Part shown: in pieces, positions 11,704 through 53,090 of the stretch
Numbering within the stretch: the stretch's first letter is position 1
Layout of the letters: each line of letters opens with the position of its first letter
Source of the DNA: Ceratodon purpureus
Taxonomy: Eukaryota > Streptophyta > Bryopsida > Pseudoditrichales > Ditrichaceae
NCBI GenBank assembly: GCA_014871385.1
Contig: CM026425.1
Coordinates: 18,618,637-18,682,636, forward strand
Direction: 5' to 3'
Length of the DNA: 64,000 nucleotides
The notes under the pieces: model-generated
Seen by the model: only the letters and a program-made list of their open reading frames with translations
Databases searched by the model: none
Told to the model about the DNA's origin: nothing
Translations under genes and position numbers: made by a program

Positions 11704-11789
11704 CCTCGTTAAGGGGTATCTCGGATCCGAGAGACTCCACATTTGCATTTGGTAGGTGTCTCTCGGATCCGAGATACCCTTTGACGAGG
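11704..11789. repeat. Paired TCTCGGATCCGAGA palindromes forming one long inverted repeat
   Basis: Two copies of TCTCGGATCCGAGA (11719-11732 and 11761-11774) sit in mirror image, so about 86 bp forms one large imperfect palindrome. It lies between the left terminal repeat and the 3' end of the transposase gene. It could act as a protein-binding site or a transcription boundary. Confidence 0.85.
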
Positions 11790-12053
11790 CGGAAAATTAC
11801 AAATTTTTTTACCCCAAAAAAAAAAAAAAAAAAAAAAAAACATAAAATTTTTAAAAAAAAATTGAATATGGATGATTATTGGCTCTTCAGGACTATGCTT
11901 GTAGATCATCTGTGCAAAATAAATAACTAAAGTATAAGAAAGTAGTAGAATCTTTATTCTTCGCAGTTCAAATCAAATACAAATCCATTTCAAATCAACG
12001 TACTGCTGGGATATTGTTAACATAGATGTTCACTTCTGAAGGCTAAATGCATG

Positions 12054-15000
12054 CTACACTGCGCCCATACGTTCGAGAACGCGCATAACTTCATTGTAGC
12101 TATAGCTAGGAGCATGCATGAAGGAGTCCTCCTTAGGATCCATCTTGCACATGTATCGAAGAATATAGTATACATGTTTGCAATATTTCCATTGCTTTGC
12201 CTTTCCAAGAGTCTCCGAAATCATCTTCACAAAATCTGGGCAAGTGCATTCGGGGAAGCTGGCAATGGTGATGCGGTACATCTTGTTCCCTCCTGTGTTT
12301 AGAGTTACCACGCATCCATAACCTGGATAAGGAATAGTGGTTACTCCTGTAACACCACAGTAGTCCATGAGAGCGGCACTTTCCCACTTGTTTCTGTGAT
12401 CTACAGTGGGTACGTCAGGATTCCTTCGAATGGAATGATTGTTGCGCAGCGTAGGATGCGCATCTGGGTTTGCCGGTTCCTTGAAATGGGACCTGGGAAG
12501 TGGCCACTTTGAAGCTCCTTGGAATTGACGCCTTGGGGACAATTCACCTCGCTGCTGCAATTGAAATCCAGCCTCCTCAAGATCTAGAACTTCCTGACGA
12601 GTTAGATTAGTTCCAATTTTCACAGGCCACACCATAGGGATGCTCGGCCAATCCATAACCCAATTCTTGGGCCCCCCCTTCACGCAACGGTTGATGTCAT
12701 CGGGGCAGAACCAAAACTCTGCAGGAACAAGACGTTTGGTGTGATAGTCTTTCTTCCTCCCTGAATACGTAGGCGCAGGTGTTCCCTTTGCTCCCCTTGA
12801 TATCTTTGCATCGCATTTCTTCCTCGTCTGGGCTTGTAGGGCTTGACATTTTCGTGCTGACCGATTCGAAAGGCGAGCAATGTGCCACGTGTTAGGATCA
12901 CAGTCTGTTTCCTCTACAGACGTGGTATGCTGGACACCGCACGTTGGATCCGAAAGTGCTTCCTCAATCCTCGCTCTTCTTGACCTGGTCCCCATCGCAG
13001 GTATTGAATAATTCACCTTATCTGAGCGATGTGAGTCGTGAGCTGATCCTGGGGGGAGATCAAGCTTCCGCTTCAATGAGCCAAAGATCTCGGCGCCCTC
13101 TAGTCCTTTCTCTTTCGTTAGCACATCGTCCGCTTCAGGATAGGCCTTCATTGCTTCAGCAATCATGACAGGGTCCAAGCGCCGTTGTGCTTGACGAAGT
13201 CGGAGCTCTGCTTTATCAGGTCCTTTGCCCCCTCGCCCCCCCTTCAGATACTTCCTGTACTGCGTGATTTGCATGAAGGCGCGCATCATATCATCCACTG
13301 TGGCGTTGTATAGGCAGTTCCCAGTGTTACCAGATTGTTGAAGCCACTTGTTGTGTATTGTCTCCGCTAGGTTGCAAGAAGGCATGTCTGCTCGTTCATC
13401 AAGCGATAGATTCTGATAGAGAAAAAGAGAACTGTTTCAGTGAATAGAAGAATTTCATACAGGACTTGCACAGGGGCCAAGGTTTAAGGTTAGTTACTTA
13501 CCAGCTGCATTGCTCCACCCCATTGCCTGTAGCGGTAGTGCCAGAAGACCATCCAGTCATTGAGAGCTCGTAACGCAGCGTCCGAGGTGACACACCCTCC
13601 AGATTGCCACCATCCTCTGATGACGTTGTACATGTCCTCTGCCTCCTCCTGGGTCTTAGTGTCCTTCCATTGCTTGCACAGGGATCTCATTTGCTCTTGA
13701 TACTCCGGCTTGATGTGGGCTATGGTCACCCGCTCAAGGCACTTGGTCCAGTGAAAAAGACAAGTTCGTTCCCGACCTTCCATCTTGTCATTCACGTTTC
13801 CGTTGCCGTACACCTTCCGCACAGCATGCCAGTTCGCGCCTGCACTGTCCGCCATGAATCCTTTGAAGTTCGGCTTCGGATGTCCATTGTCCTCCATCAC
13901 ACTGTTCAGGTTCTCCCAGAACAAGGTCTGGGCAGTGGCGTCCTCAGACTGCATATCACATAGAGCTATGGTCATGACTCTGCAGTATCTACTATCATAT
14001 ACATGGCATGCCATGGTGCTCCAGTCCTTCACTCGTCTGACATGGTCGAACATGATCCACGAATCTTGAAGGTCTCCCCCGGGCTGCATGCGCTTCACTA
14101 GGTCCGTACCACTGCCAGGCATATCCACTGACATTTTGAAGATGAACACCTTCCCTTTTGTCTGGCCTGGAAATCGGTTTTCGTGGATGAATTTGAAGGC
14201 GTTGTACTCCTTCAATCGCATGATGTTATCGACTAGACCATTGTCCTGGCGTAGGAATTTCTTCGTACCTGCAACAAAGTGCCGAATGTTTGCATCCGAC
14301 ATGGTCTCAAACTTGTCCATCACCTGAGCCATGGGTGAACCACGAAGGTGATTCTGCCCTGGAGTCGCTCGAATGAGGTAGTCCGCCAGAAATATCTTGC
14401 TCGCTCCCAAAACGATGGCAGAGTTCTTCGCATTCGGAGTACGGAGGACTTGCTCGCCTATGCACTCGTACATGAGATCCAAGGTCTCAAGGCAGGTACC
14501 ATCCGAAACTGGATGTTTATGATGCCCGAGATGGATGGCGGCCCGAGTCATGTCTGGATCTTTGCTGGTGACATGGAAGATCCTCGCAGCACATAATTCT
14601 AAACAGACAGGGGGAGTATGGCAGATTTTGCAAACAAGAGTTGAGTTAGGGGGATGCTTCTCTCCTACTAAAATCTGACTTGGGGTAAGCCCAGCCCACT
14701 GAGTGGAATTCACCTTCCCTGGATTCCTATCTATATAATCACAGTTCAAGTTCGGGCACTGAAGATGTCCCGTACAGTTGGACTTACGAAACTTTAAGCC
14801 AAAGTCATTCTTAACATTCGTGGTCATAGTCTTACACCACGCGTGCCCGTCATATTGTTTCCCCATACCATCCAACTCTCCACTGAATGTCGTCGGGATG
14901 TTCTCAGGGAGAGGAGGCAACTCGAAGATCTTGTCACCATCATAGGTTGCGGGAAGGTACTTTACTTCTACATGCTCGAGGCTAGCAAAATCAATCGACA

Positions 15001-15607
15001 AAATATCTGACCTGCAGCCCCTCCTTCCAGCAGTCTTCTTGATGGCCTCCAAGATGCTACGCGGCTTCCGTGAAGTTGGATGAACAGGGGGGCGGCCTGC
15101 GGAAACTGATGGCGAACGTAGGTGAGTCCTGCCCGGCAGTGAGCGAGTGGACCCAACAGAGGTCCGTCGTTGAAAAGGATTCGCACAAGTATCTGCTAGA
15201 CGGATATCAGGGACCACATCATCGTCCGAATCGCTCAGGCAGTGGATGTCGGGAGCACTGCCTTCTACCTTGACCTTCACCAAAGCAGGAACTCGAACAG
15301 TGGAAGTAGAACTGGGCGGAGTTAGCATGACAGTAGACTCTGACATCTGTGAATCCGTGAGGCCGTAGACTTTATATGTACCACTATGTAATGTCCAAAC
15401 GAAACCCTCTTCCTCTCTGGTTTTCACTTGAAGAACAGTCTCACTCAACACTCCATTGTCATCAAAAATCTCCCTCTCAACGTACATTGACCCCATTCGA
15501 AAATGAAACCTAAGACTCAGAAGCTGCTCAGACACCTTCACTGATCCATCTGCACCTAATGGCGCTGTAAACGGGGCCACATGGCCATGGGCACGAATAG
15601 ATGCCAT
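12054..15607 (-). CDS. MULE transposase with zinc cluster and SWIM finger (outer element)
   Basis: Predicted DDE transposase of the Mutator-like superfamily, 1154 aa from two exons: 15607-13502 (702 codons) and 13412-12054. The intron has a GTAAGT donor and TATCAG acceptor and keeps the frame. Residues 278-289 (C-H-C-C), C326/C329 and H359-H365 form a WRKY/GCM1-like zinc cluster. The catalytic region has D521 (WIMFDHVRR), D587 (GFMADSAGANW) with C616/H619 (CLFHW), and E719 in MPSCNLAETIHNKWL. A SWIM finger lies at C1091, C1093, C1113 and H1115. The nested element's duplication begins one base upstream of the ATG, so the promoter is now 28 kb away. The inner copy (18891-22452) has the same length and intron position but lacks the second Asp. 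Confidence 0.88.
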
Positions 15608-15617
15608 TCTAAGCGCC
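15608..15617. repeat. Target-site duplication, left copy, inner element
   Basis: TCTAAGCGCC is repeated exactly at 43727-43736. The copy lies one base from the outer transposase start codon, so this insertion falls in that gene's 5' leader. Confidence 0.9.
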
Positions 15618-15769
15618 CAGCGATGCTACTGTGGCAGCGGCGAGCAGTGAGCAGTGAGCGGTGAGCAGCCAAAAATCGCACCGGGGGTCAAAAGTGAGCA
15701 GACAAAAACCGCACCGGGGCCAATATTTTCGTGTGCAAAAAACGCACCGGGGACCCATGGCCGTGGAAA
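15618..15769. repeat. Inner element left terminal inverted repeat
   Basis: Begins CAGCGATGCTACT, then GTGGCAGCGG, GAGCAGTGAGCAG units, and three copies of a unit ending GCACCGGGG. The right end has two such units. Homology ends near CCGTGGAAA on both sides. Confidence 0.9.
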
Positions 15770-15847
15770 TTTGTCGAGCATGTGTGGCATATAACCGTGG
15801 AAATTGCGAGGTACCGCCCCCGAATATTGGCAGCGGAAAGACTGTAA

Positions 15848-15858
15848 AATCCGACAGA
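15848..15858. promoter_or_regulatory. Isolated half-palindrome (ATCCGACAG) near the inner left end
   Basis: AATCCGACAG is the half-site of the inner palindrome and lies about 80 bp inside the left terminal repeat. As a single short match it could be chance. Confidence 0.3.
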
Positions 15859-15878
15859 CGCTCTTGGGCGACCATAGA

Positions 15879-16379
15879 ATGTTGAGGTACCTCAGATGTG
15901 CGCAAGTGATTAGCGGCATGGGGATGGTGAAAGAGGACTGTGAAGCTTGGGTTCCGAGTGCGGAAGAGTGCGAAGTAATTGATATCCTCTCAAACCTAGG
16001 TGACTACTCGATTCAGTCTGGAAGGGAAGTGGCTGTGATCGACAAAGCGGAAAACATGGAGAACTTGATTCCTCCAAGAGCAGGCCCATATTCTCAGCTT
16101 CGCGGTTCGAGGAACATTCCAAGGATCGCAAGTCCGTGTTGGAAGCCAAAGATGATGAGACCGATCGTGAGAAGGACGTTGAGATGCGCGGCCAATCCAT
16201 ATGCTGGTGCCGTTGGGGACGGAAAGATGTACGTGTCGCAGTTGCCCAAGCATTTAGAGAGACCAACAACGCCAACCATATCGGCGACTGATAGTGCAAT
16301 CAATCTTGAAGAACACCAAGGATGGGAGAGGCTAGACTTTTCTGTTGATGGAGAAGATAGTATTGCCGTTGAGCAGTAG
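15879..16379 (+). CDS. Hypothetical protein, inner element left end
   Basis: An open frame of about 166 codons starts at the ATG at 15879; an upstream ATG at 15804 in the same frame would add 25 residues encoded next to the terminal repeat. The protein is not recognised. It has an acidic first third (EDCEAWVPSAEECEVID), a basic middle (WKPKMMRPIVRRTLR) and an acidic tail. An AATAAA-like signal follows near 16491. It is the first gene inside the inner left end and points inward. Codon-level support for coding is weak; it could also be a remnant. Confidence 0.4.
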   Translation: MLRYLRCAQVISGMGMVKEDCEAWVPSAEECEVIDILSNLGDYSIQSGREVAVIDKAENMENLIPPRAGPYSQLRGSRNIPRIASPCWKPKMMRPIVRRTLRCAANPYAGAVGDGKMYVSQLPKHLERPTTPTISATDSAINLEEHQGWERLDFSVDGEDSIAVEQ

Positions 16380-17172
16380 TAAGGCTAACAAAATATTTAA
16401 GTGTATACTGCATTAGTGGTTGCAGCCGTAGCATCGTCCAAGCCTAGGAAATCTAAATGTCGTTATCATGTATCTTAACCAACCTGGGTACAATAAAGAA
16501 TGACATGGGGGGCGAGAAAATATTTCAATTTTGGCATTTCAATTTTACTCGATCTAATGTGATGTTTCACCTCCATTCTGGGTACAATTAAGATCTGTAA
16601 CAAGGACGTAGTGCAAAGGGCGGCCGGCGTTATGAACTTTTATATTAATTATGAAACCATAAGTTACCGTGACATAATTCTACAATTCCAATGTTAGTCC
16701 TGAACGGGTGGGCACCCTCGATATTGTTGGCAAGACTAAACTTACTGAAGAATCCGTCAGCCACATACAGGAGAATGGTAGGGGTGCGGTACTAAGGTAG
16801 TAGGGTGAAGGGAAGGACGACCGAGTGTCATGGGACTCCGACGGCCGGACTACTGCATCATCTGGAGCCGGTGGTACCTGGCTTATAGTGAGATAGGAAA
16901 TGAAAATAGTTTGTGGGACAGTTTAGTGACAAAGAACTCAACATACACAGACAATTTGTTTGTGAAACGGGGCTTGATGATGCACAGTTTGCTGTCAATT
17001 TGCTTCAAGAACTAAAGTGTAGTGATTCAAACAATGTGCAAATGTAAGCTTGGCAAAGATAGACTGATATCAAAGTGATTACATATGTATTAAAGGAGCA
17101 AGTTAAAATCAGTACAACGACTATACCCTGTTACAAAACAGCGACTATATCAGGATGCTGTCAACATAGATG
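16380..17172. other. Spacer, no feature recognised
   Basis: Contains the 3' flank of the preceding frame and the 3' flank of the convergent minus-strand gene. No repeats or palindromes were noticed. Confidence 0.5.
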
Positions 17173-17847
17173 TCAAACGGGAACTTCCTTCGCCACCTCC
17201 GATACAGACTGCAGACTTGGACCTATCACAGAACTATCACAAATCCATCTTTCGCCATTTCGTTTCCATAGAGAAATCATGCGCAGCGTAGGGCACTGCG
17301 TGGAAGGGTTGTCAACAACGTTAAGAACCTGCAGCCCCGAATACGCTTCCTGGCGGTACGTGTCTCGCCAGAAATCGACTCTCAGAAACGTGACTGGGTC
17401 GGGTGGGGAGGGCTGCGCAAAACACAACGTCACGCTGTTGCCGTCCGGGAAGAACCCCACCTGACTCAGTCGATGAAAGGTTGTGGACTCACTCGGAGGA
17501 ATATGAGGTGTCATGATTCCTCCGGAAGGTGCTTCCTGAAAGCCTTGGCCAGGTACCCAGACAAAAAGCATGATGCACCTCATCATCTTTGGAGCGTCAA
17601 CGGAATGGAGAAATTGATCATCAAAGACCACACTGCAGGTAAACACTTTCAAAAGCCACGTCTTAAAATTCTGAGACCAATCCTCAGCGCACTGGTAGAG
17701 TGAGAACTCAATCTTGGCCTGGGCGGAGGGTTTGCGAAATACAATATCCCCGATCTGCGGATCCATCATGGAGCTGGTGTCTAACATAATTCGCGATTTA
17801 CGGCCTAGGCTAAAATAGATTGGTTTCATCGCGAGGTCCATTGGCAT
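17173..17847 (-). CDS. Hypothetical protein, 224 aa (inner element)
   Basis: An uninterrupted minus-strand frame of 224 residues with balanced composition and many aromatics (FSLYQCAEDWSQNF, LFVWVPGQGF, WKRNGERWICDSS). No family is recognised. A TATATAT box on the minus strand at about 17890-17896 lies about 45 bp upstream of the ATG, which supports a real start. It faces the same way as the transposase. No matching gene was seen in the outer element. Confidence 0.6.
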   Translation of the reverse strand: MPMDLAMKPIYFSLGRKSRIMLDTSSMMDPQIGDIVFRKPSAQAKIEFSLYQCAEDWSQNFKTWLLKVFTCSVVFDDQFLHSVDAPKMMRCIMLFVWVPGQGFQEAPSGGIMTPHIPPSESTTFHRLSQVGFFPDGNSVTLCFAQPSPPDPVTFLRVDFWRDTYRQEAYSGLQVLNVVDNPSTQCPTLRMISLWKRNGERWICDSSVIGPSLQSVSEVAKEVPV

Positions 17848-18890
17848 GAGGCTTCAGCTGAGAATGATTATGCGATCTCCACTAACCTCATATATAGAGA
17901 CCATCCCACAAGCAATCACAGAGCGCCGGAATCAGCAATGAAACATTGGTAATTGAATACAGCTTTATCGATTGAGGTGTATTGTACTCTCACGAATTCG
18001 GCGGCAGTCTGGCAGGATTCAGGTGAGTTAACCGAGATTTTTTGAACTCTGGTTATGAGGAAAGCGTGCATTTCGATGACCTCCAAAACATTATCTAATC
18101 ATCATTTAGAATACAATACATATATCTCTCTTAATGGAGCAAACGGGATGATTATATAACGGGATATATACCTGCCAAAAAATCCGGCAGTAGGATCCCT
18201 GCAATATTGTGTCATCCGGGAGATCAACATGAATTTTACCGGACTTAAATTACTGAGATGTCATTTTGTTACCCGTAGGGTAGTTCTCTGAAGTGGTGGA
18301 AGGGCGCCACCCGTGGTTTTGGTTCGGACCCAGAACGTAGTGCCGGATCCGTCAGATGATTTCGGGGACGGACTTGAGGCAAGGTACCCTGCCGCGGGAG
18401 GGGAACGAAGTGGACTCAAAAAAACCGTCAGCCGGGTTTGGGAAGGGGCCATGATGAGGGGGACCCGGCCCAATATCAGAATTCTTCATTATGCCATGAC
18501 GACAACGTTATTCGGGATGAGAATTGCGACGGCGTTTGGATGGATGCAACAGTTAGATAGCAGAGAAGTGAGAGCATGTGCATTCTATGTCTTCGGTGTG
18601 ATTGGGTACCATTGATAATAAGAAATTTTACTATCGTTGGCGCATAAAGTAGATCAATTTCTGGGAAAACTTAGAATATTTATAGAAATAAATACAAATA
18701 TACAAAAATGTCTGGATTGAACCGTATACTAAACGATGCTCATGCCAACACATGATCTGAATATCCGACATGAATACGAGCAGTTTTGCCACCGCTTTAA
18801 TCTGTGACGTAATAGGAATAAAAATGTCACCGAGTTCGTACCGAGCGCCCTAGGATGAAGGTAGGGGAAAAAGACACATCAGAAGCAAAC
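17848..18890. other. Spacer between hypothetical gene and inner transposase
   Basis: Holds the 17173-17847 promoter and the transposase 3' flank. A weak plus-strand frame of 100 codons (18313-18615) has no supporting signal and is not called. Confidence 0.5.
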
Positions 18891-21800
18891 CTAGACATTG
18901 ATAAGCGAAAGAAGGCCACTCTGAAAAATAGCCTTGACCTCGTTAAAGCTGAGGCTTGGAGCATGGATGTAGGAGTCCTGGTGAATATCAAGGTTGCATA
19001 TAGCATTGAAGATGTAATAGAGATGCTTGCAAGGCACCCAGGGAGGTCGTTTTCCCAGCGACTTGATGGACATTTCCTTGAAGTTGGGGCAGGTGCAGGC
19101 GGGCTCCGGGCCAATTGTTATTTTGTAGACGTTAGACTCCGATACGGTCTCAGAGACAACGCTGATGATGCACCCGAAACCTGGGTTAGGTATGAGTGTG
19201 ACTGATTGGATTCGAATGGTGAGTAGAGTAGATGAGGCCCAGTTGTTCTCGTGCTCTGTTCGTGGCACCCGGTTACAACGCCGAATCTTGAATCCTCCTC
19301 GCACCGTGGGATATATTCCTGGAGCTGGGGGTACACTCCACTGCGAGAGGTCAAACCGTGGCCGCTGTGGGAGAGATGCACCGTCGTGAAAAACTTGGTG
19401 AGCGGGTAATTCTTGGCGTTGAGGGAGTCTGAAACCGGCTGCCTCGAGGTCAAGTATCTCCCTCTTTGAAAGGCGAGAGCCATGCTTGACAGGCCAGATA
19501 AGCGGGGGAGGGGGCATGCTGGAGACCCAGTTCCGCTTAGTACCCATGACGCATCTCTGGATGTCGTCGTTACAGAAGCAGAACTGCATCCATTTTTGCT
19601 GATCCTTCCTGACGTCGGTGAAGATGCCCCAGTAGCATGGCACAATTGTAGCCTTCTTTCCCCGTATGAGCCTCGCCGTGCACTTCTTATTCGTCCTCGC
19701 CTGTTGAGCAAAACACGCCTTCGCCGATCCCTTTGGAAGCCTGACAAGGTGCCACATACTCTCGTCCACATCCGTCTCCTCCACAGCGGTTACGTGATGA
19801 CGACTCCTGTTCTCGTCCGGGCTTGAGACTGGCGATGGGGGTGCCGCTTGGACCCTTTTTGGAGGTGAATCCTCTGGTTCAGCATCAGGCTCCTTGCGTG
19901 CTCGCGTATTCCTAGTGCTCAGACGAGGTTGAGAAAAATTTACCTTGTCCGGCCTGTGGGAGTCATATTCGGATCCGATCGGTTGATTCAGCTTCCGTTT
20001 CGTGGACCCAAAGAGCTCCTCGCCTTCGCGATGTGGCTCACGGGAGAGCAACTGTGGAGCGTCATGGAAGTGTTCAGTGGCATCGGCAAGGCGCTTGGGA
20101 ATCCCTGATTTTTGAGCTCGCCGTAAACGGAGTTCGGCTTTGCAAGGTCCCTTACCCGGGGTCTCACCTCGCAGGTAGGCGCTATAGTTAGTGCATTGCA
20201 TGAAGCCCCTGACATAATCGTCCACCGTGGCAAAGTAGATGTTGTCGCCACGATTGCCCGACATCTGAAGCCATATATTGTGCACAGTCTCCGAGAGGTT
20301 GCAGGAGGGCATCTCGTCCTTCTCGGCGTCCGTAAGGTCCTGCAATCAAAGAAATTGCTGATTCAATCAATTCTACGTCAAATAAGTGTATTAAGTGACT
20401 GGATAAAAAAAGAGATGTTGTACTCACCAATTGCATGAAGCCTCCCCACTGCCGATATCTAAAGTGCCAAAATACGAGCCAAAGTTCGAGGTCACGAAGA
20501 CCGGAGGCAGTAGTAGCGCCTGAGGAGGTCCACCATGCTCGGATCGCGTGGAAACGAATGTCGGCTTCTTCCATGTTCTTTGCATCACGATACTGCTTGC
20601 AAAGCACGTAATGCTGCCTCTGCAAATCTGATCCGATGATGTGAGCCTCAGTGTGCTTCCTAAGTGAGGTTGCCCAATGAAACTGGCACGTACGCTCACG
20701 GTCTGGCATTGGAACCGTCGCGTCGCCACTTCCATAGATCTTCCGCACACAGTTCCAGTTGGCCTGGGCGCTGTTCGCCATGAAGCCCTTGAAGTTGACT
20801 TTGTCATAGCCATGTTTTGCCATAATTCCGTTCAGGAATTGCCACATCACGGTCTGGGCCCTCACGTCTTCTGACTGCATATCACAAATGGCGATAGTCA
20901 TGACCCGGCAATACTGAGAGTCATAGACATGACATGCCATGGTTGTCCAACCCTTTGTGCGCTTGACGTGATCAAACATAATCCAGGAATCCTGGAGATC
21001 CCCGCCAGGTTGCATTCGCTTTACAAGATCCACTCCCGACCCGGGACCTTTCTCGGACATCTTAAAGATAAAAACCTTGTCCCCTTCAGAACCCTGCCCG
21101 GGAAATTTATTGTCATGAATAAACTCCCACTTGCTGCAGCCCCGCAAGGCAGCGATGCCGTCGATAATGCCCAGGTTACCGATCCCCCTGAAGGTCGTCA
21201 CGGCGTTCTTAAGCCCGGGCTTGCTGAGTGTATAATACTTCTTGAACACCTCATCCAACTCTTCGTCCGAAAGAATGGTCCGCTTCTCCCCCGGTGCAGT
21301 TAGGAGGTACTCACTCAGAAAATCCTTACTCGCCTCTAGAGCTAGGGCCGATGTCTTGGCGTGCGGAGTGTTCTGCATATGCAACTCGAGTAGGTCGAGA
21401 ACCTTCTGCTTGGTCTCCCTGCACTCAACGTATCCAACAGGGTGGTTATGTGTACCGATATGGATACACGCACGTGACATCGCAGGATTCCCGAGCACGT
21501 AGTACATCCTTGCAGGGCACGTGGCGATGCATTCCGGGGGATATCTGCAGATTTTGCATACAAGTGTGGACTTCGGAGGAGGATCACAACCAACGACAAA
21601 CGGGGTAAGCGTGACACCGTCCCACTGAGACTCGTTCACCTCCATCTTGCGCTTGTCTCCTCGAAGCAAGAAGTCGCACTTCTCGTTCTGGCATTTCAGA
21701 TGACCTGCACATACAGAATATCTGAAAGTCAGTCCTTGGTCGTTTGTGATGTTGGTCGTCATGGTCTTGCACCATGGATGTGCGTCGTACTTCTTATCCA

Positions 21801-39990: not shown

Positions 39991-40079
39991 CTCCCGGCCA
40001 CGCATTTGTGTATTTGCTTCCGACTTCTCTTTGTTTGAATTTATTTATGCATACTCATCGTGTTCTTGTGGTTATGCAG

Positions 40080-42513: not shown

Positions 42514-42527
42514 TGTCGGATCCGACA
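42514..42527. promoter_or_regulatory. Inner-type palindrome between divergent genes
   Basis: An exact TGTCGGATCCGACA lies about 160 bp upstream of the minus-strand gene and about 300 bp upstream of the plus-strand gene. The position suits a shared control site. Confidence 0.6.
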
Positions 42528-42824: not shown

Positions 42825-43427
42825 ATGGATCAGTCTCCCCCCTCTCAACAGCCCGTTCAATCCTCGTCCAATAGCCATACCTCGTTACGAGAGCAGATCA
42901 AGTCTTCGATGCCTCCAACTACAGAAATGCTCCGGGTTCGATTCATTGCCTCTTCTGTTGATTTGAATATCTTTGATTTTACTTTACTCCCTACGGTTTA
43001 AGTTAGGTGTTTGCATTTTCTTCAAGATTCTGTACCTCACTTACCCTTCTTCTTCCACTGCATGCAGGACGGGTTACCATGGCATAATTGGGAGCTGAGG
43101 GAGTTCATTTCGAGAGTGACCGACAAGTACAAAGATCGTCGGCCTGGTAAGGAGGTGGACATGTTCTCCGACGTCCAACAGCTTCGTCAAGTGATCCGAT
43201 CAAATCGAGGCCAGATAGACTGGACCGAGGACGACGTTCGCACACTCAGGCGTGTTGAGAGTGCTTCCGGGATATCATGTCTAGAACCCGAGTTGTTTCA
43301 TTACTACATTCCAAGACTCAGATCAACATGGACTTCTACGGACAACGTTGTTGATTTTGGCAATGGAGCTCCCGGACCATCGGCTTTCTTAGAGGAAGAT
43401 TTTGATTGGGTAGAGGATAATGAGTAG
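42825..43427 (+). CDS. Hypothetical small protein, acidic C-terminus (inner element)
   Basis: Two exons, 42825-42935 and 43068-43427 (CGG|GTTCGA donor, CATGCAG acceptor), join in phase to give 156 aa. The N-terminus is Ser/Gln-rich. The middle holds DGLPWHNWELREFISRVTD and QLRQVIRSNRGQIDWTEDD, likely helical. The end is acidic (LEEDFDWVEDNE). No family is recognised. It is the last gene before the inner right end and points outward. Confidence 0.6.
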
Positions 43428-43606
43428 CCTAAGCCTTCCAATTCCGAGAACAGTGACAGCCCCCCCCCGGTGATTCTAAGGATCATTTTTAATATTTACA
43501 ATTTTTTTTCAATATATAAATTTCGCGGATTCTGGGATCTTGGTGTCTGAATTTCATTCATCCACTTCATTCGCTCATGGGTTTATAGGAACCCCGGCGG
43601 TAATTT

Positions 43607-43726
43607 TTTCCACGGTCATAGGGTCCCCGGTGCGTTTTTTGTCTGCTCACTTTTGACCCCCGGTGCGTTTTTTGGCTGCTCACCGCTCACTGCTCACTGC
43701 TCGCCGCTGCCACACCAGAATGCCCG
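43607..43726. repeat. Inner element right terminal inverted repeat
   Basis: Reverse complement of the left end: CGCCGCTGCCAC preceded by GCTCACTGCTCACTGCTC and two CCCCGGTGCG units. It is followed by 13 bp and the TCTAAGCGCC duplication. Confidence 0.9.
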
Positions 43727-43736
43727 TCTAAGCGCC
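43727..43736. repeat. Target-site duplication, right copy, inner element
   Basis: TCTAAGCGCC, identical to 15608-15617. Outer-element sequence resumes here: the original upstream region of the outer transposase. Confidence 0.9.
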
Positions 43737-44443
43737 TGGTAGAAGATTGGAGATGTAGAGTCATGCATTGAGAGAGAACTAAAGGAAGAGTGGGAATAAG
43801 AAGTGAGGTGATGATGATTACTCCTTAACTCTTTTATGTTGGTATCACCTCATGAGCCATCTATTAGGTAAGAGCGACATGGTGGATGACAAATCAAATT
43901 AGTAAAGTTGTTAAGCATTGGCGTTAAGCAATAAGACGGCTAAGAGAATACTGTTGGCTAGATTAGCATGAAATTCAAATCAATCACTCTTTTTCCAGAT
44001 ACAAACAGGAGTACGTGGCGCGGTGCGGAGATAATATGTCTCTCGGATCCGAGAGACAGTTTTACGCCGCAATTTGCAAAGTGTAAAATAGGGAAAATAT
44101 AGACATGACTGACGTGGAGCTTTCAAACTGATCTCCTCAACAACTCGACACAGTATTACAAAAAGCATATGCAACGGCGTAACTGATAATGGAGAAACGA
44201 ATGACGGCCACCTACACCAAAACAGGATTGATAGCTTCAATATTATTAAGAAATAGACTGCCACTTTCCAGTGATACATGTCGTACCTTATAAAATTAAA
44301 TAAGTGGAAGTGATATGACAAATAAATCTAAGATCATGGTCCTAGCAGAGTGTCAATACTCCTCCTATTTTTATTTTCGTGCATATTGATCGTACTATTC
44401 TTTTGGGATCCAGGGTCCACATCTTCAATTGCCGAGCATCCCT
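43737..44443. promoter_or_regulatory. Displaced upstream region of the outer transposase
   Basis: Before the nested insertion this sequence lay directly 5' of the transposase start. It contains an outer-type palindrome, TCTCGGATCCGAGA, at 44041-44054, about 300 bp from the insertion point. Confidence 0.6.
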
Positions 44444-44800
44444 TCATCTGAAGCTTTCGTCCTTTACGGCGCGGTGTACCGCGTAACAGAGCTCTTGTGT
44501 ACGTTCCCGGTTGAATGATTCCAACATCAGCATAGGCATGCTTCTTCCTGGAATCAGAATCATCGATGTGAGCATCGTAACGTCAGGCGCACTAGCCTCA
44601 ATGCCAGGATGTCCCGGGGACTTTACAGTATGAAAATGTAATGAACTTGGAAGAGGATCAGGAGGAGGTGAGACGTGGCCTTCATCACTACCTTTCGGAA
44701 TAGGCTCGAAAGGGCCTTCAAAATCGTCAATTGACAACACTAATGCCATGGCATCCTCGACCAAGGGGGAACTAGACCGCTTGCCTCCCTCTGCATCCAT
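44444..44800 (-). CDS. Hypothetical protein, 118 aa (outer element)
   Basis: Starts MDAEGGKRSSSPLVEDAMAL and contains a Pro-rich stretch (VSPPPDPLPSS). No family is recognised. A minus-strand TATAAG at 44867-44872, 66 bp upstream of the ATG, and a plus-strand TATAAG at 44970-44975 indicate a divergent promoter pair with the gene at 45061. Confidence 0.5.
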   Translation of the reverse strand: MDAEGGKRSSSPLVEDAMALVLSIDDFEGPFEPIPKGSDEGHVSPPPDPLPSSLHFHTVKSPGHPGIEASAPDVTMLTSMILIPGRSMPMLMLESFNRERTQELCYAVHRAVKDESFR

Positions 44801-45060
44801 GGTCAGATATGCGAAGAGGACAACCGCACCGTCGACTATGAGAGAAGGAACTAATTGGTATGGGTCCTTATATTACCAATGATACGTCATTCGTGGACGG
44901 AGAGGATTTGACATCCACGGAACTGTTCATCTCAATTAAGATTTTAATTATATGTCCAGAGGGGTAGAGTATAAGTACTGAAGCGTGGTCTGGAGCACGG
45001 CATTAGAGAGCGTGTAGAGTCAGTTGTTATAGTTGGGAATTTCTCTTCAGCTCTGCACAC

Positions 45061-45649
45061 ATGACGGCAAATAAGTCAAAAGATGTAGGAATAGAGACGC
45101 CAGTACCTAGGAGTAGCAAAAAGAGAGGCCAGACTTATAAGTTTTCTAGCGGTAAGCAGAAAACTGCTGCAGTGTTGAAAAAGAAAAAAAGAGTGGAAGG
45201 TGATAGCATAGACAGAACTGTTAGGACTCTAATGTATGAGGAAGTCTCTGAACAAGCGACAGAGTCATTTCGATTAGAAAGGGTGGAGGAGGACGCACTT
45301 GAGTTTGAAACACCACGTACTGGGAAGAGTGCGGCGGGAAGGAACCAAGCCGTCTCATCCGGGCCAGCACTTGAGTACAGTGACGCGGGGTCGAAGGATT
45401 ACAACCTAGGGTTTAGGGGAGGAGGAAAGAGGAAGTCCTGTGAGAGTGCCCTCATTGAGAGTGACGAAGAGGTTTTGGTTGAGGTAAGTAGAGTGTGATC
45501 ATGTTGTCCCTAATCCCATTCTCATGAGTCGCCTTGTGAATAATCATTGTCGTCTTCTTCCCCAGTATAAGGCTGCTTTGGAGGTTGGGACTTTGGATAT
45601 TCTTATTTGTAAACGCAAGTCTTTCTTCACAGCATTTGTTTGTAAGTGA
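45061..45649 (+). CDS. Lys-rich small protein, two exons (outer element)
   Basis: Exons 45061-45483 and 45566-45649 (GAG|GTAAGT donor, CCCCAG acceptor) are in phase and give 168 aa. The N-terminal half has basic clusters (SSKKRGQTYK, KKKKRVEG) like nuclear signals; the rest is acidic. It ends 36 bp before the ATG of the ParB-methyltransferase gene, so the two could share a transcript or be parts of one gene. Its counterpart in the inner element may be 22895-23269, in position and composition rather than clear sequence similarity. Confidence 0.5.
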
Positions 45650-45685
45650 CGAGTTAGAGAGTCGACTGTCTTGAGTTAATGAGAG

Positions 45686-48600
45686 ATGGCAGAAGATATT
45701 ACTAGAGACTTGGGTGCGCTTATACCCCTCGAAGGGTCAGATAGTAGTGACGAGAAGGAGAGCACTAATCCATGTCGGTCCAATGTGGGTAACCAGGAAA
45801 TGTCGGGGGGAGTGCGAAGCGCGTCAAGAGGAAAGGGGAAGGCGAAGCAGAAGTCAGGCGACGCATCTGCTTCAACTCAGACTGCGGGGGGGTCGTCCGC
45901 GATGGAGGAAGGGGCCACAGAGGAGGTAAGCAGTGGAGAGACATTCTTATGAATTTCGTCATCGGTGTTTGAATAATTCTCTATATCAGTTCGGATTGTG
46001 AAGTTGCTGTTTAGAGTGTCTGTGTGACTGCGCGAACTGTGGGTGGGGGTCCGCGGGTGAGCATTGCGCAAGCAGTAGGTGGGGGTCCGCGGGTGAGCAT
46101 TTAAGAGGGTGGGGGCCGCGGGGGGTATAAAGGGGTGGGGGTACTGAGAGAAGCTCTTTTCATCTCTTTCTTGGTGGAGGAGTCCGCGGTTGTTTGAGAG
46201 GGGTTTGGAGAGTATTGTGGTGGTGGAGGGGGCAGAGCTTGTTGTGAGTATGTGTTTCGTGAGCGTGAGGATGTAGGGCGTTTGCAGGGGAGAGTTCGCG
46301 GGTTCCTTTGAGGAGGGGGGTTCTATGTTTCAGGGTTTAGGTAGGGGTTCACTGAGGTTGAGGGTGTAAAGATTTAGTGGTTGATGTTGTTGAGGGTGTG
46401 TTCGGAAGTTAGTTTGTGAGGGTTGTTGGGGTGTTTCAGGGAGTAAATAAACAGAGAGGGTTTTGTGGGTCTCTTTGGAGTAGTGAATTTCTTGTGTATG
46501 ACGATGGAGGAGCGTGAGTCTGTGGTTTCTGAGGGTTCGCAGGTAAGAGCGGCCAGAACAAATTAGGTTTAGATCGGAGGGTGGGCAGTAGAAACACGTG
46601 TCTCGGATCCGAGACACGTTTCTGCAGCTCAGAGAATTAGATGATTTAGGAAAGCGACATTGTTTTCTTGCGCGGACGTTCGGGAAACATACTCATACTG
46701 TGTGCTCCTATGTGTATGGACAGATTACACCTTACGAGCCCGTGGACATGGATGCACCTCCACGCATTGGAGAGGGTGATGTTGATCCTGGCATTCATGT
46801 AACCATGGAGAGACTGCGGCAGAGAAGGAAGGGGAGAGGCCAAGAAGCAGTGACTGAAAGCCTTGACAAACCCGTGTATGAGCTTGAAATTCCTCTGTGT
46901 CGAATGATTCCAATGACAGAGGTTCGCGGCGCATTAGCTCCTGACATAGAGAAGCTGAAATCTGAGTTTGCTCACGGCTACAGACTTGGGTCATCTGTTT
47001 TCTACGTGGCCACCCGAAGTTATACAATGGAGACTCAGGAGGTAACTGAAGAGCAACGAGGCTCGTGGGATCCGATTTGGAGGGAGGCTGAGAAGACATT
47101 TGAGGAGAGGTTGAAGAGAACACCTGGTTTGGAAAAGTACTCGAATAAGATGTTTTACATCTGGGATGGTAATCACCGGCACAAGGCATGGAGTAGGGTC
47201 ATAACAGACTTTCATTCCCGTGATCCAAATCCAGCGTTTCATCCAAGCCCCAAGGCACATATTATATGTGTCACAGAGGAGAACAAGCAACGACTTCTAC
47301 ATGCGATGACACAGTGGAACAAGTAAGTTCACTTCTACAAGTGTCTTTTATGGCAAGTTTTGGTTACTGTGAAGTACTAATCATCGGATTATTCAATATC
47401 AGGAAGAACGAATACGACCATGTGAACCAACATTGGACTCACGAGCTCCGAAGAGTCATACAGTTTGGTAGTATGCCCTTCGACCAGTTGAGAACTCTCA
47501 TCTCTGAACGCGATTATGAGAACAGTCTGACAGAGTGGAACCGAGTCACAAAGAATAAGAAGTGGTACCATCTAACAGGGGATGCATTTTGCAACTTACT
47601 GTATGAGGTATTTTACGAAAACACTTATATGTCTTCTAAAAGCTGATTATAATGGCATAGGAGTACCCGTGGACTTACTCAATATCTCTCTTTTGCAGAG
47701 AGAAATTATCAATGCGCAGGAAGCAGCAATGAAGATATACGAGGACTCCTTAATAACTCACGGTGAAAAGAGACAAGGAGACAGCAACATTCTAATTGAA
47801 CGTGCAAATGCAGCGATAAAGGCTTGCAAAACGCACCTGCACACTGACATGGAACGCTTACTGGCAATAGCGGATCCGAAGAATGGAGAGGGATTCATCA
47901 GAGAGGTAAGACTTTTTTATTGTTTTGCTTTGTTTTTCCTTGGTTTTGTATGTTATCTTGCCTTCCTTTGACCCTCCGATAGGGTCTCTCGGATCCGAGG
48001 GACCCTTTCGGAGGGTCATTTTAGACCCAATGTGCTGCAATATCATCATATTGCAGCACATTTGGGGGGCCTTTTAACGTCTCTCGGATCCGAGAGACGT
48101 TAAAGGGCCCCCTAAATGTGCTGCAATATGATGATATTGCAGCACATATAGGGGCCTAAAATCGTCTCTCGGATCCGAGAGACGATTTTAGGACCTCTGG
48201 AAGAGCTAAAATATCATTATATTTTAGCTCTTTCAGGGGGCCCTTTAGCGTCTCTCGGATCCGAGAGACGCTAAAGGGCCCCCTGAAAGAGCTAAAATAT
48301 AATGATATTTTAGCTCTTCCAGAGGGCCTAAAATCGTCTCTCGGATCCGAGAGACGATTTTAGGCCCCCTGAAAGAGCTAAAATATCATTATATTTTAGC
48401 TCTTTCAGGGGGCCTAAAATCGTCTCTCGAATCCGAGAGACGATTTTAGGACCTCTTTAATAGCTAATTTATGATGATAAATTAGCTATTATAGGGGGCC
48501 TAAAAACGTCTCTCGGATCCGAGAGACGTTTTTAGGCCCCCTGAAAGAGCTAATTTATCATCATAAATTAGCTCTTTCAGAGGTCCTAAAAACGTCTCTC

Positions 48601-51176
48601 GGATCCGAGAGACGTTTTTAGGCCCCCTATAATAGCTAATTTATCATCATATTTGCATCATTTTCCTAAAATATGACTATGTATATGGTATTCTTCGAGT
48701 TTCATGATGTTTTGACATAAACTTCACTGATTTCTTGTAGATTGAAGCCCATTTCAGCACTTTCAGAAGCAAAACAGAGATGAATCCTGAGAAGCTCCAG
48801 CTGTTTGCAACTGCCAAAGTACCAGCAAAATACAAGGAGAGATGGGTACACTGGTGGAATATGAGCAAAGAATCACGTGAAATTTATAACTTCCCAAAGT
48901 ATCCCGCCTCAACATCAGCCCTTCGACCTTGGGTGGAAGTTGCAGCTTTCTGGGCCGGAGTAAGTTCATTTCAGTTTTCAAAATAATTGCTTATTTTGAG
49001 ATACCAATTTATATCTATCCGAGTGGAACGACATAGTTCAATGCAATGATTTCTGTAAAACTCATCATTGAAGGTGATAGTTTTGCAATTAGATGACGAA
49101 AGTCAGCTATATCGGTGAATCTATTCAGATGGGCTGACAGTGAACATCATATTTTCTTGCAGCTTGAAGAAGAAACTGGGATTCAGTATGCCCAAATTCT
49201 TGAAGACGAGGGGATCGTTATACCACCTCAAGCACCTGCAATGGGTATTGTGTCCATTGATAAGTTCGTTAGCACTGGAGCTCACAAACTTTGGAAGAAG
49301 GGGTTCCCGGAATTTCTTGGAAGGTATGGCGGGTTTGTGAAGTCCAAGCCTTTCAATGATCAAAAAGACACTAAGCTGGCTGTGAACCGGATGATTGTAA
49401 GGTATTTTTACTGGGAGCTTCTAAGGAAAGATGCCATTACAGTTGACAACATTCCCATTCGTTTCTCCAAGTGGCTTGATACCTCCAGCCCCGACTGTAT
49501 CTTCAACGATTATCAGAGGAAACATTTCTCTCGCCCTCATCTCCAAGAGTGTCCGTGGTATCTCGAGCTCAAAAAGGAAGAGAAAGAGCAGGACTCCGAG
49601 CGCGCCTACAAAGCCAAATGTGTGAGGGAGACAGAGGAGATGGAGGCGCAAGGAGTCAATACGCAGAATCCAACCGCGGAGGAATTCATGTCTGAGAAAG
49701 ATCGAGCAAAGGCAGTCGCTAAGAAGCAGGCCGAAGAGAAAAGGGCTGCAGCGAAGGCTCAGAGCGAGAAGGAGAAGGCGCTGGCCAAGCAGAAGGCAGC
49801 TGAGGATAAGGTCAATAACGAGAGACTTGCTAAGCTTGTCAAGCAGAAGGGACTAAAAGGCGCTATGGACGAAGAAGGAATTTCCCCTTCAGGCAGTAGT
49901 ATGCCCTCTCAGAGATCGCAGGGAGTCTCTATTCTGCCCAGCCAGGTCCTTAGTCAGACATACTATTCTGTCAAGTCGAAGGCCTATCCCAATCATCCAC
50001 CGGATGTTCTGCTGATCAATAAGAGTGCAGCGCAGATTATGGACGACATTAGCAACAACAATCCAAGATCTGTAAACGATTGGAAAGCGGTCGGTCGGTT
50101 CGTGGGTGGGCACCAGTCGCACAGGCGTCGCCAGTACAAGGGTGAAATTCAGAATGTCAAAGCAGTTGACCTTATCGTGTTTGACGTTCCAGAGAATTTG
50201 CCTGTGCCCTTCTTTGATGATGATGCCATTCCAGAGTGGAATGTATTGCCCATTGATACAGATCCGGATTCCCAGAAGTCAGAGTCTCCCTGGATCCATA
50301 AACACTTTGAATGGGCCAGTGAGTGGATCGCAGACGATGGAGTAGTCCTTGTGTTTTATCCTGACAGTAAGTTCATTCTCTCGGAGTTGGAGGGCTGGTC
50401 TCATTGGGCGGGATTCAAGGTGCAGCACAAGTGGATCGTCATGAACGACCTTAAGACAAACAGCCCTGATTTTCCAGATATACAGACCACGGTCACGAAC
50501 GCCATGCTGTTCGCGCGAGAAGAGAATGCCGCATTAGGCATTCCTGCTTCTCGATTCCATTTCTATGAGCAATCTGACCTTGAGGCTAAAGGCGTTGACA
50601 TGGTTAATCTAGGTTTCCTTGTTAACAAGATAAACCAGGATAACTGGACAGTGAGAGAAGTCAGTGGTGGTCCATGGCGTGGTCCACGTGAGAAGTCAGA
50701 AGACCTTTTCATTGGTTTGTTGGACCTTCTAAGTCAGGAGGAGGACATAGTTATGGACCTCACCACATCTACAGGTAAACTTAAATTCCGTCACACTTGT
50801 TAGTTTCATCGTTTCTTGAATCCTCCTCTATATCTTACTTCCTATTTCTTTTCGTTTTCCAGGCGCCTCTATCAAGGCCTGCAAATATATGCACAGGCAC
50901 CTAATTGCTCTCGAGGAGGACCAGAACCTTCACGATGAGATTCTGCTTCCACTTGTTCCGGATGCTGTCGAGGATGATTCGCCGGCACCTACTCCTCCTC
51001 CAAAGAAACGTGGACCATCCAAACACGCTGAAGAGCCTCCTTCAAAGAAAGCTCCTAGACGCTCCTGTGAGTGATTACTGTTTTTACTACAAATATTTTG
51101 GAAGTTTTATTTTTCGAATTTGAATCATCTTTTCAGACTGTTTCTAATTATATATTTTTTTGCAGATATAAAGTGA
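45686..51176 (+). CDS. ParB-like / DNA methyltransferase-like fusion protein (outer element)
   Basis: Eight exons: 45686-45925, 46724-47322, 47403-47607, 47699-47905, 48741-48959, 49163-50774, 50863-51066, 51166-51176. Phases match, giving 1098 aa. Residues 131-265 are ParB-like (LEIPLCRMIP; DGNHRHKAW at 228-236). Residues 418-490 (exon 5) equal the inner exon 4 in length (73 codons) and show WVHWWN / WLRWWN similarity. Residues 626-720 form a Lys/Glu/Ala coiled coil absent from the inner copy. The methyltransferase-like part has DLIVFDVPEN (motif IV position, D831) before SEDLFIGLLDLLSQEEDIVMD and DLTTSTGASIKAC. Here the SAM motif I glycines are lost, so catalysis is doubtful. Exon 1 and its splice to 46724 are the least certain. 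Confidence 0.78.
46601..46614. promoter_or_regulatory. Outer-type palindrome in intron 1 of the outer ParB-methyltransferase gene
   Basis: ACACGTGTCTCGGATCCGAG and its mirror make a longer palindrome around the core at 46601-46614. It lies about 110 bp before exon 2, in sequence read here as intron. Confidence 0.7.
47976..48655. repeat. Concatemer of alternating perfect hairpins in intron 4
   Basis: Eight TCTCGGATCCGAGA-type palindromes start at 47987, 48082, 48167, 48253, 48339, 48425, 48511 and 48597, spaced 84-95 bp. Each alternates with a second palindrome: AAAGAGCTAAAATAT and its complement, or GTGCTGCAATAT and its complement, or TAGCTAATTTAT and its complement. The flanks (CTAAAAACG, GGGCCCCCT) are also mirror-symmetric, so nearly every base is part of a hairpin. 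The first copy (CGAGGGA end) and the sixth (CTCGAATCC) are slightly altered. Confidence 0.95.
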
Positions 51177-51648
51177 GCGCACTGCTGCTCGCGGTCCTCA
51201 AGTCAGCACCACCTATGCCAGTCTTCTATAGACTATATGATACTGATATTTTATAGGATAATACCCACTATCTACGTATATTTCATTCAGTTTAGACAGA
51301 TTACATTTTGAGTTGCGTAAATCTGTGGGACAGGACTTTGTCTGTGGCCTAGCCTGAACAGGAATGTCACGTTCCATTTTGAATACCCATACTTCTATGA
51401 ATATATAATACTCTGGCTTTCGTTTTATGCGGCTGAGATTGTGTTCTTCCATTACGTCAAATTCAAATTTTTACCTGCAGTTTGCCCTAGTTCGTTTCAA
51501 TGCATTAATTGATAATGCAATTTTCATTCTTTTCTATTTATGATGGCATATCATTTATTACAAATTAGAAACCACATAGAACTTTTAGTACTCCATTCCA
51601 TTTCTTTATATTTCCTACATTTCAATAATATTTACACGTCCTCTACAA
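51177..51648. other. 3' flank of the outer ParB-methyltransferase gene
   Basis: AT-rich with no coding signal. It leads into palindrome-bearing repeats. Confidence 0.6.
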
Positions 51649-51654
51649 GTGCTT

Positions 51655-52471
51655 GAAAACGTGTCTCGGATCCGAGACACGTTTTCAAGGCTTTTATTTA
51701 TCTCCGATTATTTCATACCCTACCCTTACCCTTCCACACCAACCCCTTTAACCCCTCCCCTACCACCCCCCCTACCCGGCCGAGACAACGTGTCTCGGAT
51801 CCGAGACACGTTGTCTCGGCTTTTTTTTTTCCTAAAAAATTAACTAAAATTAAAAAAAACCCCTCTCCCCTCCCCTACTCTCCCCCTACCCTCCCCCTAC
51901 TCCCCCCCCTTAAACCCCTCCCTTATCCTCCCCCGGAGCCGAGACAACGTGTCTCGGATCCGAGACACGTTGTCTCGGCTTTTTTTTTTCCCAAAAAAAT
52001 AACTAAAATTAAAAAAAACCCCTCTCCCCTCCCCTACTCTCCCCCTACCCTCCCCCTACTCCCCCCCCTTAAACCCCTCCCTTATCCTCCCCCGGAGCCG
52101 AGACAACGTGTCTCGGATCCGAGACACGTTGTCTCGGCTTTTTTTTTTCCCAAAAAAATAACTAAGATTAAAAAAAACCCCTCTCCCCTCCCCTACTCTC
52201 CCCCTACCCTCCCCGTACTCCCCCCCCTTAAACCCCTCCCTTACCCTCCCCCGGAGCCGAGACAACGTGTCTCGGATCCGAGACACGTTGTCTCGGCTTT
52301 TTTTTTTCCCAAAAAAATAACTAAAATTAAAAAAAAAACCCTCTCCCCTCCCCTACTCTCCCCCTACCCTCCCCCTACTCCCCCCCCTTAAACCCCTCCC
52401 TTATCCTCCCCCGGAGCCGAGACAACGTGTCTCGGATCCGAGACACGTTGTCTCGGCTTTTTTTTTTCCAA
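51655..52471. repeat. 159-bp tandem array with a perfect 42-bp palindrome per unit
   Basis: Palindrome cores start at 51793, 51952, 52111, 52270 and 52430 (period 159, 159, 159, 160). A related single copy is at 51663. Each core is extended by GCCGAGACAACGTG on one side and its complement on the other, giving 42 bp. Units also contain a T-run, an A-rich segment and a long C/T-rich segment. Confidence 0.96.
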
Positions 52472-52489
52472 AAATTACTCCAAAAAATT

Positions 52490-52905
52490 AAAACCCCCCC
52501 TACCCCCTCCTCTTTCCCTCCCCCTAAACCCGCCCTGCCCCCTGCCCCTCCCCCTGCCCCCGCCCTGCCCCCTGCCCCTCCCCCCTTTCACTCCCCCTTC
52601 CCTTTGCCCCTCCCCCTTTCCCTCCCCCTTCCCCCTGCCCCTTCCCTCTTTCCCTCCCCCTTCCCCCTGCCCCTCCCCCTTTCCCTCCCCCTTCCCCCTG
52701 CCCCTTCCCTCTTTCCCTCCCCCTTCCCCCTGCCCCTCCCCTCTTTCCCTCCCCCTTCCCCACTGCCCCTCCCCTTTCCCTCCCCCTTCCCCCTGCCCCT
52801 CCCCCCATCCCCTCTCCATTCATCCCTCCCTCCCTCCCTTTCCCTCTACCTCCCTCCATCCCCCCTCTCTCTCTCTCTCCCTCCCTCTCTCTCTCTCTCT
52901 TCCTG
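52490..52905. repeat. About 400-bp almost pure pyrimidine tract
   Basis: Nearly all C and T on the plus strand, made of CCCCTTCCCCCTGCCCCTCC-like units and ending in CT microsatellite. Such mirror-like tracts can adopt triplex (H-DNA) structures. The open frames across it are compositional artefacts. Confidence 0.9.
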
Positions 52906-52909
52906 CGTG

Positions 52910-53090
52910 TCTCGGATCCGAGGGACTGTGTCTCGGATCCGAGACACGTCCTTCCCCTCCCCTCCCACCCTAACCCTGGTGCGCCGCCACCCTCCCCTCC
53001 CTCACTGGCTCTCGGATCCGAGAGCCAGTATAAGAGGGAGGGGGTTTCTCTCCCCACTCCCTCTTTCACTCACTCTCTAACAAGGTTAGT
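52910..53090 (+). promoter_or_regulatory. Three palindromes, TATA box and leader donor of the acidic-protein gene
   Basis: Outer-type cores lie at 52910-52923 (one mismatch), 52931-52944 and 53010-53023. The last is extended to CTGGCTCTCGGATCCGAGAG plus CCAG and abuts TATAAG at 53029-53034, with only 1-2 bp between. A CAAGGTTAGT donor-like site follows at about 53081-53090. Confidence 0.7.

Follow-up and report, generated by a model that had tools for sequence, protein, structure and literature searches.

One-base dialects of a short palindromic word in two nested giant MULE-like transposons of a moss

We analysed a 64-kb stretch of the moss Ceratodon purpureus (contig C5:18618637-18682636, within a 362.5-Mb eukaryotic assembly), which is called here the window and in which positions are counted. 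It contains two giant transposons resembling Mutator-like elements (MULEs), one nested inside the other, and both carry many copies of a short word, often arranged as a palindrome, whose form differs between the two elements. This word, its distribution and the protein that may read it are the subject of the present work.

Two nested elements and their genes

The outer element occupies positions 11410..55037, which is about 15.5 kb once the inner insertion is subtracted, and it is bounded by the terminal inverted repeat GCAATCTTGTGAGCAGCGAGCAG and by a perfect 10-bp target site duplication (TSD), GAGCTAGTTC, whose identical copies lie at 11400..11409 and 55038..55047. The inner element (15618..43726, 28.1 kb) also has a perfect 10-bp TSD, TCTAAGCGCC, at 15608-15617 and 43727-43736. 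Its insertion point lies immediately 5' of the ATG with which the outer transposase starts, and the duplicated site begins at the base adjoining this ATG. The inverted terminal repeats of both elements are rich in GAGCAG. Furthermore, an uninterrupted copy of the outer element, O2 (G000:C1:14.858-14.873 Mb, 94-99% identity over the main aligned pieces), is flanked by its own 10-bp TSD (ACTTGATAGA) and contains TCTAAGCGCC only once, which is the exact empty site of the inner insertion. Mutator-like elements show target duplications of about 9-11 bp together with terminal inverted repeats, and here perfect 10-bp TSDs flank both elements of the window, a third TSD being found around O2. Regarding the base composition, the observed/expected ratio of CpG was 0.70 in the outer and 0.84 in the inner element versus 0.60 and 0.51 in the flanks. 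This is compatible with low methylation of the elements, but we set it aside as a sign of it, because it is confounded by composition and age.

The outer transposase (1154 aa; 12054..15607, minus strand, exons 13502-15607 and 12054-13412) comes from a splice model, its exon 1 has 31 homologues, and its C-terminus is SWIM-like in its Cys/His residues, as judged by eye only. Pfam gave no match to the spliced protein at E<=1, and PF00872 was found weakly (E=0.034) in one of 11 exon-1 homologues. A search of viral contigs with the transposase profile A2 returned 16 stretches and no confirmed relative, and a search of PDB sequences with A1 and A3 returned nothing meaningful. The inner transposase (18891..22452, minus strand) also has two exons, at about 20428-22452 and at 18891-20339.

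Each element furthermore carries a gene for a ParB-methylase-like fusion protein, here called PM, in which a ParB-like region is joined to a beta-class methylase-like domain. Both PM genes are predicted from splice models. The outer one (46498..51074, plus strand) has seven modelled exons and 1064 aa, and the inner one (24225..31128, plus strand) has seven modelled exons and 1183 aa, an additional 5' exon being possible. In the outer element there is also an acidic accessory protein, whose coding exon is the open reading frame (ORF) at 54024..54621 on the plus strand and which resembles, by eye only, an inner protein at 39903-40541.

Distribution of the word in the window and in the genome

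A search for TCTCGGATCCGAGA with up to two mismatches gave 26 matches in the window, against a mean of 0.16 in shuffled sequence. Twenty-one of these are C-type palindromes, 18 exact and three one-base variants (47987, 48425 and 52910), and all of them lie in the outer element, in agreement with the original prediction of about 21 copies confined to it; the remaining five are G-type sites seen at two mismatches. The G-type palindromes number seven, all in the inner element and all at the positions predicted for them, four being exact (31875, 34903, 38261 and 42514) and three having one mismatch (38631, 38797 and 40960). The flanks (1-11399 and 55048-64000) had been described as empty, and indeed we found there neither type of palindrome and none of the 8-base half-sites.

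The palindromes are real, but the unit of the system is the half-site and not the palindrome, and 27 G half-sites in an intron of the inner element had gone uncounted. The half-site TCTCGGAT occurs 39 times in the outer element, 3 times in the inner one and never in the flanks, whereas TGTCGGAT occurs 41 times in the inner element, once in the outer one and never in the flanks. A few half-sites of the other type thus occur in each element. An unbiased count of 8-mers gave the same picture: ATCCGACA tops the inner element (41 versus 1 in the outer), and the leading 8-mers of the outer element, poly-A aside, are GGATCCGA (43 versus 14 in the inner), CTCGGATC (40 versus 1) and ATCCGAGA (39 versus 3). 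The two dialects had also been said to differ only at the second base pair from each end. That base does differ, but the preference is wider: outer sites read GT[CG]TCTCGGAT, all 39 having G at that place, and inner sites favour CTGTCGGAT, with C in 32 of 41. In the outer element the modelled coding exons, taken from the transposase, PM and the basic and acidic ORFs, cover 50% of the sequence, and in the inner element, where they were taken from the transposase and PM only, they cover 25%; none of the 39 outer and none of the 41 inner half-sites of the element's own type falls within them.

In the outer element, two C-type palindromes (11719..11774) lie between the 3' end of the transposase gene and the left terminus and are conserved in O2. 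With the inner insertion subtracted, another (44041..44054) is about 0.3 kb upstream of where the transposase starts, and in a related family, A, a T/C palindrome is found at a similar distance upstream of the transposase. The palindrome at 46601..46614 is inside intron 1 of the PM gene (46543-46627) and adjoins its 3' splice site, and intron 4 of the same gene contains an 86-bp array (47906..48740, plus strand) with eight C-type palindromes, two variants included, and 14 half-sites. Nine more (51664..53023) are upstream of the gene for the acidic protein, in a 159-bp array and at 51664, 52910, 52931 and 53010, the last one ending 5 bp ahead of a TATAAG at 53029. The presumed 5' intron region of this gene (53146-53960) contains 16-bp TTTCGGGTT-like repeats, which resemble a decayed half-site.

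In the inner element, the PM intron orthologous to outer intron 4 (25803..28628, plus strand) holds 74/75-bp arrays with the 27 G-type half-sites, first in plus and then in minus orientation. The palindrome at 31875..31888 lies 5' of a TATA box (32020), and the one at 34903..34916, a 24-bp perfect palindrome, lies 5' of the ORF at 35.3 kb. Three more are found between 38261 and 38810, the two with a mismatch (38631 and 38797) being inside an open frame (38393-38929) that was not counted as a gene. The palindrome at 40960..40973 has one mismatch, and the one at 42514..42527 stands 1.2 kb short of the element's right terminus. Several of these palindromes are thus found ahead of likely genes. 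The inner element also has an off-type near-palindrome of the pyrimidine (Y) type, TCTCGGATTCCGAGA, at 38967..38981, 17 bp ahead of a TATAAG at 38999. At two G-type places on contig C1, a C/T and a G palindrome are 356 bp apart. We considered whether G-type elements conserve a Y-type palindrome beside a TATA box, but this was not supported: the pattern TTTCGGATCCGAGA-N4-16-TATAA occurs at 29 places and at neither of the two G-element sites in question, which its gap range may have missed.

These positions bear on the possibility that the transposase itself is what binds the words, which would then be transposition enhancers. In En/Spm, subterminal TnpA sites are bound by an element-encoded protein, and the transposase is the one protein that every such element must make. 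The two palindromes conserved in O2 are 0.3 kb away from the left end of the outer element, and at the left end of the inner one a G half-site (15849) is found 0.23 kb from the terminus. However, the word is absent from the terminal repeats, and most of its copies are in the interior of the elements, in introns of PM and in upstream regions; even the palindromes nearest to the right ends are 1.2-2 kb away from them. Moreover, PM has diverged far more than the transposase. We consider this explanation unlikely.

The original prediction had called for a genome-wide count. Exact palindromes were found 1160 times as C/C, 591 times as G/G, 66 times as T/T and never as A/A, and hybrid palindromes 460 times as C/T, 21 times as C/G and 66 times as G/T, whereas the reversed patterns used as controls gave 0 everywhere except for G/T (1 and 1). 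Many of the G/T hybrids lie in 180- and 225-bp tandem arrays (G000:C1:28266-28274 kb, C6:81.91 Mb and C5:19.66 Mb), which are probably further families. A match of the 16-mer GTCTCGGATCCGAGAC to viral contigs, found once in one 7-kb contig, was taken as chance.

Both motifs scattered through unrelated regions or freely mixed would have spoken against the dialects, and as far as sampled we did not see this. Among the palindromes listed on contig C1, which are the first places of that contig only, none of 50 C palindromes had a G palindrome within 5 kb and none of 23 G palindromes had a C palindrome, versus 40 of 50 C near another C, 20 of 23 G near another G and three of five T near a C. At 20 kb the C-G proximity grows to 16/50 and 3/23, all from one crowded region (14.76-14.88 Mb); in the dense region G000:C1:14.757-14.884 Mb there are several clusters of G-type palindromes and one complete C-type element close by. 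All seven outer-like PM copies listed within the range of the C places have a C palindrome at most 7.4 kb away, and 20 loci taken around C palindromes contain no G palindrome, with one G half-site in each of four loci. Searches with the ParB-like exon gave 1827 candidates for the inner type and 1829 for the outer one, 150 of each set being scored, and therefore the proximity and copy figures are samples. Many of the candidates scored are 99% identical to the copies of the window in this exon and have open frames, so the elements may still be active. The dialects are real and not a product of chance.

The PM intron and the PM protein

The strongest evidence comes from the orthologous PM intron, which was compared in 13 cases and holds a tandem array detected by TRF in 11 of them: outer, O2, A, B, L022, inner, L033, L034, L035, L036 and L037. 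The two without an array are L024, with one C-type palindrome, and L038, a group III relative with no TRF array above the score cut. The splice sites match in eight introns (outer, O2, inner, L033, A, L034, L022 and L035), where the upstream exon ends in F-x-x-E before a GT donor and the exon after the AG acceptor starts with I. The remaining introns were located by matches to the flanking exons, and in L037 and L038, which gave no match to the downstream exon, the 3' limit was set by hand. The loci L011, L014, L017, L027 and L028 were excluded from the comparison because their PM matches were partial or rearranged, and L001, L005-L008 and L029-L032 were outside the analysis.

The array units differ from family to family. 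Outer and O2 have an 86-bp unit with C/C palindromes, families A and B a 95-96-bp unit with T/C palindromes, and L022 a 347-bp unit with C-type palindromes. Inner and L033 have a 74-75-bp unit with single G half-sites, and L034 (group II) has a 149-bp unit with G palindromes. In group III (L035-L037) the unit is 151 bp and carries an unrelated inverted word, GCGGTCGGG, which is a further dialect; the loci L035-L038, whose PM relatives are about 40% identical, contain no TNTCGGAT palindromes. The longest fragment that these introns share between families is 41 bp, except in the related pair L022 and L024, which have 105 bp in common at 74%, and therefore the part that recurs is the word and not the repeat unit. 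Furthermore, in each of the five arrays tested the motif columns were more conserved than the rest of the unit (0.95-0.99 versus 0.83-0.92).

Two other explanations meet this evidence. The first is neutral expansion of repeats within families, the segregation reflecting the separate ancestry of the two elements. Tandem repeats do spread by slippage, each family inheriting its own, and the different word of the group III arrays fits such a history. Nevertheless, the CGGAT-centred word recurs in several families whose units in this intron are unrelated, single copies of it stand upstream of genes, and the modelled coding exons have none, so we hold this account to be decidedly improbable. The second is that the DNA or its RNA acts through structure (intron hairpins producing siRNA, cruciforms or replication origins), the sequence being incidental. 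The outer array does contain near-perfect palindromes, one of them of 132 bp, but the inner and L033 introns carry half-sites as direct repeats instead of a palindrome, and what the orthologous intron repeats is sequence and not symmetry. This appears very unlikely to us.

Regarding the protein, the methylase-like part of PM has the fold and the profile of a beta-class DNA methyltransferase (PF01555). The catalytic motif of these enzymes is (D/N/S)PP(Y/F/W). PM does not have it, and at the position aligned with the catalytic DPPY there is D[VI]PE in 15 of 17 aligned homologues. This substitution counts against the idea that PM is a live methyltransferase (adenine or N4-cytosine) marking its own element at the word; in addition, the half-sites of the inner array mostly read GGATT, so there is no GATC there. 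Such an activity is quite unlikely.

For the ParB-like region, a PHROG search matched ParB at E=0.085 in one of four such proteins scanned, and hhalign aligned it to phage methylases at E=5.7e-5 over 47 columns, Pfam showing no ParB domain in those methylases. An AlphaFold model of this part was too poor for use (pLDDT 43.7). The words could be parS-like sites for partition or tethering, read by this region: PM has the ParB-like motif DGNHR, and parS palindromes are comparable in form to the 14-16 bp palindromes found here. However, the region resembles the N-terminal regions of phage methylases and not a segregation ParB, Pfam recognised no helix-turn-helix, and partition is needless for chromosomal elements, all of which makes this the kind of role that we hardly expect.

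PM evolves faster than the transposase, as judged from sequence identities. Between outer and inner they are 28% for PM and 45% for the transposase, and between outer and family A 47-52% for PM, over residues 53-497 only because the rest was unmatched in the stretch fetched for family A, versus 79-85% for the transposase. In a tree of 12 ParB-like exons, rooted at the midpoint only, the pyrimidine (5), G (3) and group III (4) rows separate with two dialect changes, which is the minimum and which none of 200 shuffles reached. The PM clades, as this tree resolves them, thus match the dialect groups.

Apart from these subjects, the inner element has two arrays of one 96-bp unit (32162-33268 and 39481-40019), open in more than one frame. 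Its ORF at 33523-33996 encodes YMPTSPV-like heptads similar to the C-terminal repeat of RNA polymerase II (PF05001, E=0.0047, below the cut-off), the ORF at 35930-36361 shows a weak likeness to plant self-incompatibility S1 (PF05938, E=0.05, below the cut-off), and the ORF preceding the latter starts like a secreted protein, as judged by eye.

Interpretation and known systems

The original prediction had read the dialects as an element-specific address code separating self from non-self. The words do segregate by element, but the code works at the level of clades, because families with divergent PM share words, C and T mix freely and even within one palindrome (the 460 C/T hybrids) and a further clade uses another word. 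Actually, C words are common to families whose ParB-like exons are just 46-52% identical to that of the outer element, and G words to groups I and II (about 51%). A code of clades fits better: at one position a pyrimidine is set against G, the preferences extend into the flanking bases, and the third clade has another word. A distinction of self from non-self between clades is plausible, whereas families that share a word cannot be told apart by it.

We propose that a regulator encoded by the element, probably PM, binds the palindromes and half-sites, which would serve as family-specific cis-regulatory sites, and that this regulator may counter silencing; we give this reading as a whole a probability of roughly 0.5. 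An element-encoded protein, most likely the fast-evolving PM, would recognise the half-site T[Y or G]TCGGAT. It would gather on the arrays in its own PM intron, near promoters or upstream of genes, and near one end, and once gathered it would keep the genes of the element switched on, most plausibly by working against silencing by the host, as VANC does for the VANDAL transposons of Arabidopsis. One base pair per half-site parts the pyrimidine clade from the G clade, and so reader and sites can co-diverge. We infer the binding of the word by a protein, PM as the binder and the anti-silencing outcome from sequence, and our confidence in them differs: some regulator encoded by the element probably recognises the word, for PM as its reader the chances seem about even, and anti-silencing, as opposed to plain activation or autoregulation, is a tentative choice made by analogy and somewhat less likely than not.

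Several observations weigh against this proposal. Pfam found in PM no specific DNA-binding module, no helix-turn-helix and no VANC domain. The off-type palindrome at 38967 is a Y-type site inside a G-type element, the 66 G/T hybrids blur a strict rule of Y versus G, and the L034 array mixes its half-sites (24 G, 5 C and 2 A). As for the 13 introns, they are a selection, taken from loci that were reached through palindromes or PM matches. The arrays scored for conservation were anchored on the motif, whose advantage is modest, since between 3 and 19 windows per array, its own included, are equally conserved. Finally, the 12 rows of the exon tree represent about six independent lineages, because several of them are near-copies.

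As for its origin, a phage-type ParB-methylase may have been captured by giant MULEs, lost its chemistry (DPPY to D[VI]PE) and become a sequence-specific reader, while the word in its intron arrays diversified by clade (C/T, G or unrelated). This would be an anti-silencing address system independent of VANC, a scenario that we consider possible and no firmer than that. The known proteins closest to it are phage methylases with an N-terminal ParB-like region, such as gp206 of Gordonia phage RedWattleHog (MT521993), which share with PM the order of the parts and the profile similarity of both, whereas PM is eukaryotic and intron-rich, has extra helical regions and shows D[VI]PE instead of DPPY. 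Direct tblastn between PM and these methylases gave weak matches (E 0.2-5). If PM is indeed the reader, a methylase scaffold would here have taken on the reading of DNA in eukaryotes.

Two transposon systems can be compared with the moss elements. The TnpA protein of En/Spm has subterminal 12-bp sites and a regulation linked to methylation, and the likeness consists in an element-encoded protein, many short repeated sites and this link to methylation. The differences are that En/Spm belongs to another superfamily and that its sites are confined to subterminal DNA. To our knowledge, family-specific anti-silencing words are known only from Arabidopsis, and our literature search found no account of the present system in moss; this search was incomplete and we do not claim its absence from print.

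The closest precedent is the VANDAL/VANC anti-silencing system of Arabidopsis (Hosaka et al. 2017, PMC5735166; Sasaki et al. 2023, PMC10398659). According to the first paper, each VANDAL family has short motifs of its own, which have built up as tandem repeats in introns and in intergenic and terminal non-coding DNA; related motifs define the families, and the transposase is the partner that stays conserved (PMC5735166). The moss elements likewise have a family-specific short motif enriched in non-coding tandem repeats, closely related words that separate families, and a transposase more conserved than the regulator. In contrast, VANC carries DUF1985/DUF287, which we found neither in the two PM proteins or the outer transposase (E<=1) nor in the inner transposase exons (E<=0.1) nor in ten further ORFs of the window (E<=1), a scan that may have missed unspliced small genes, while the candidate here is ParB-methylase-like. 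The words here are mostly palindromic and centred on CGGAT, the inner element reaches 28 kb, and sequence-specific binding with loss of DNA methylation is a property of the VANC system. The logic would thus be that of VANC with an unrelated candidate reader and in numerous giant transposons. Furthermore, the several dialects in the orthologous intron of a single gene make the co-divergence of protein and DNA testable with pairs of readers and sites, the sites differing in one base pair of each half. Taken together, the comparison suggests that the moss system may work like VANC, although by sequence it is not a VANC.

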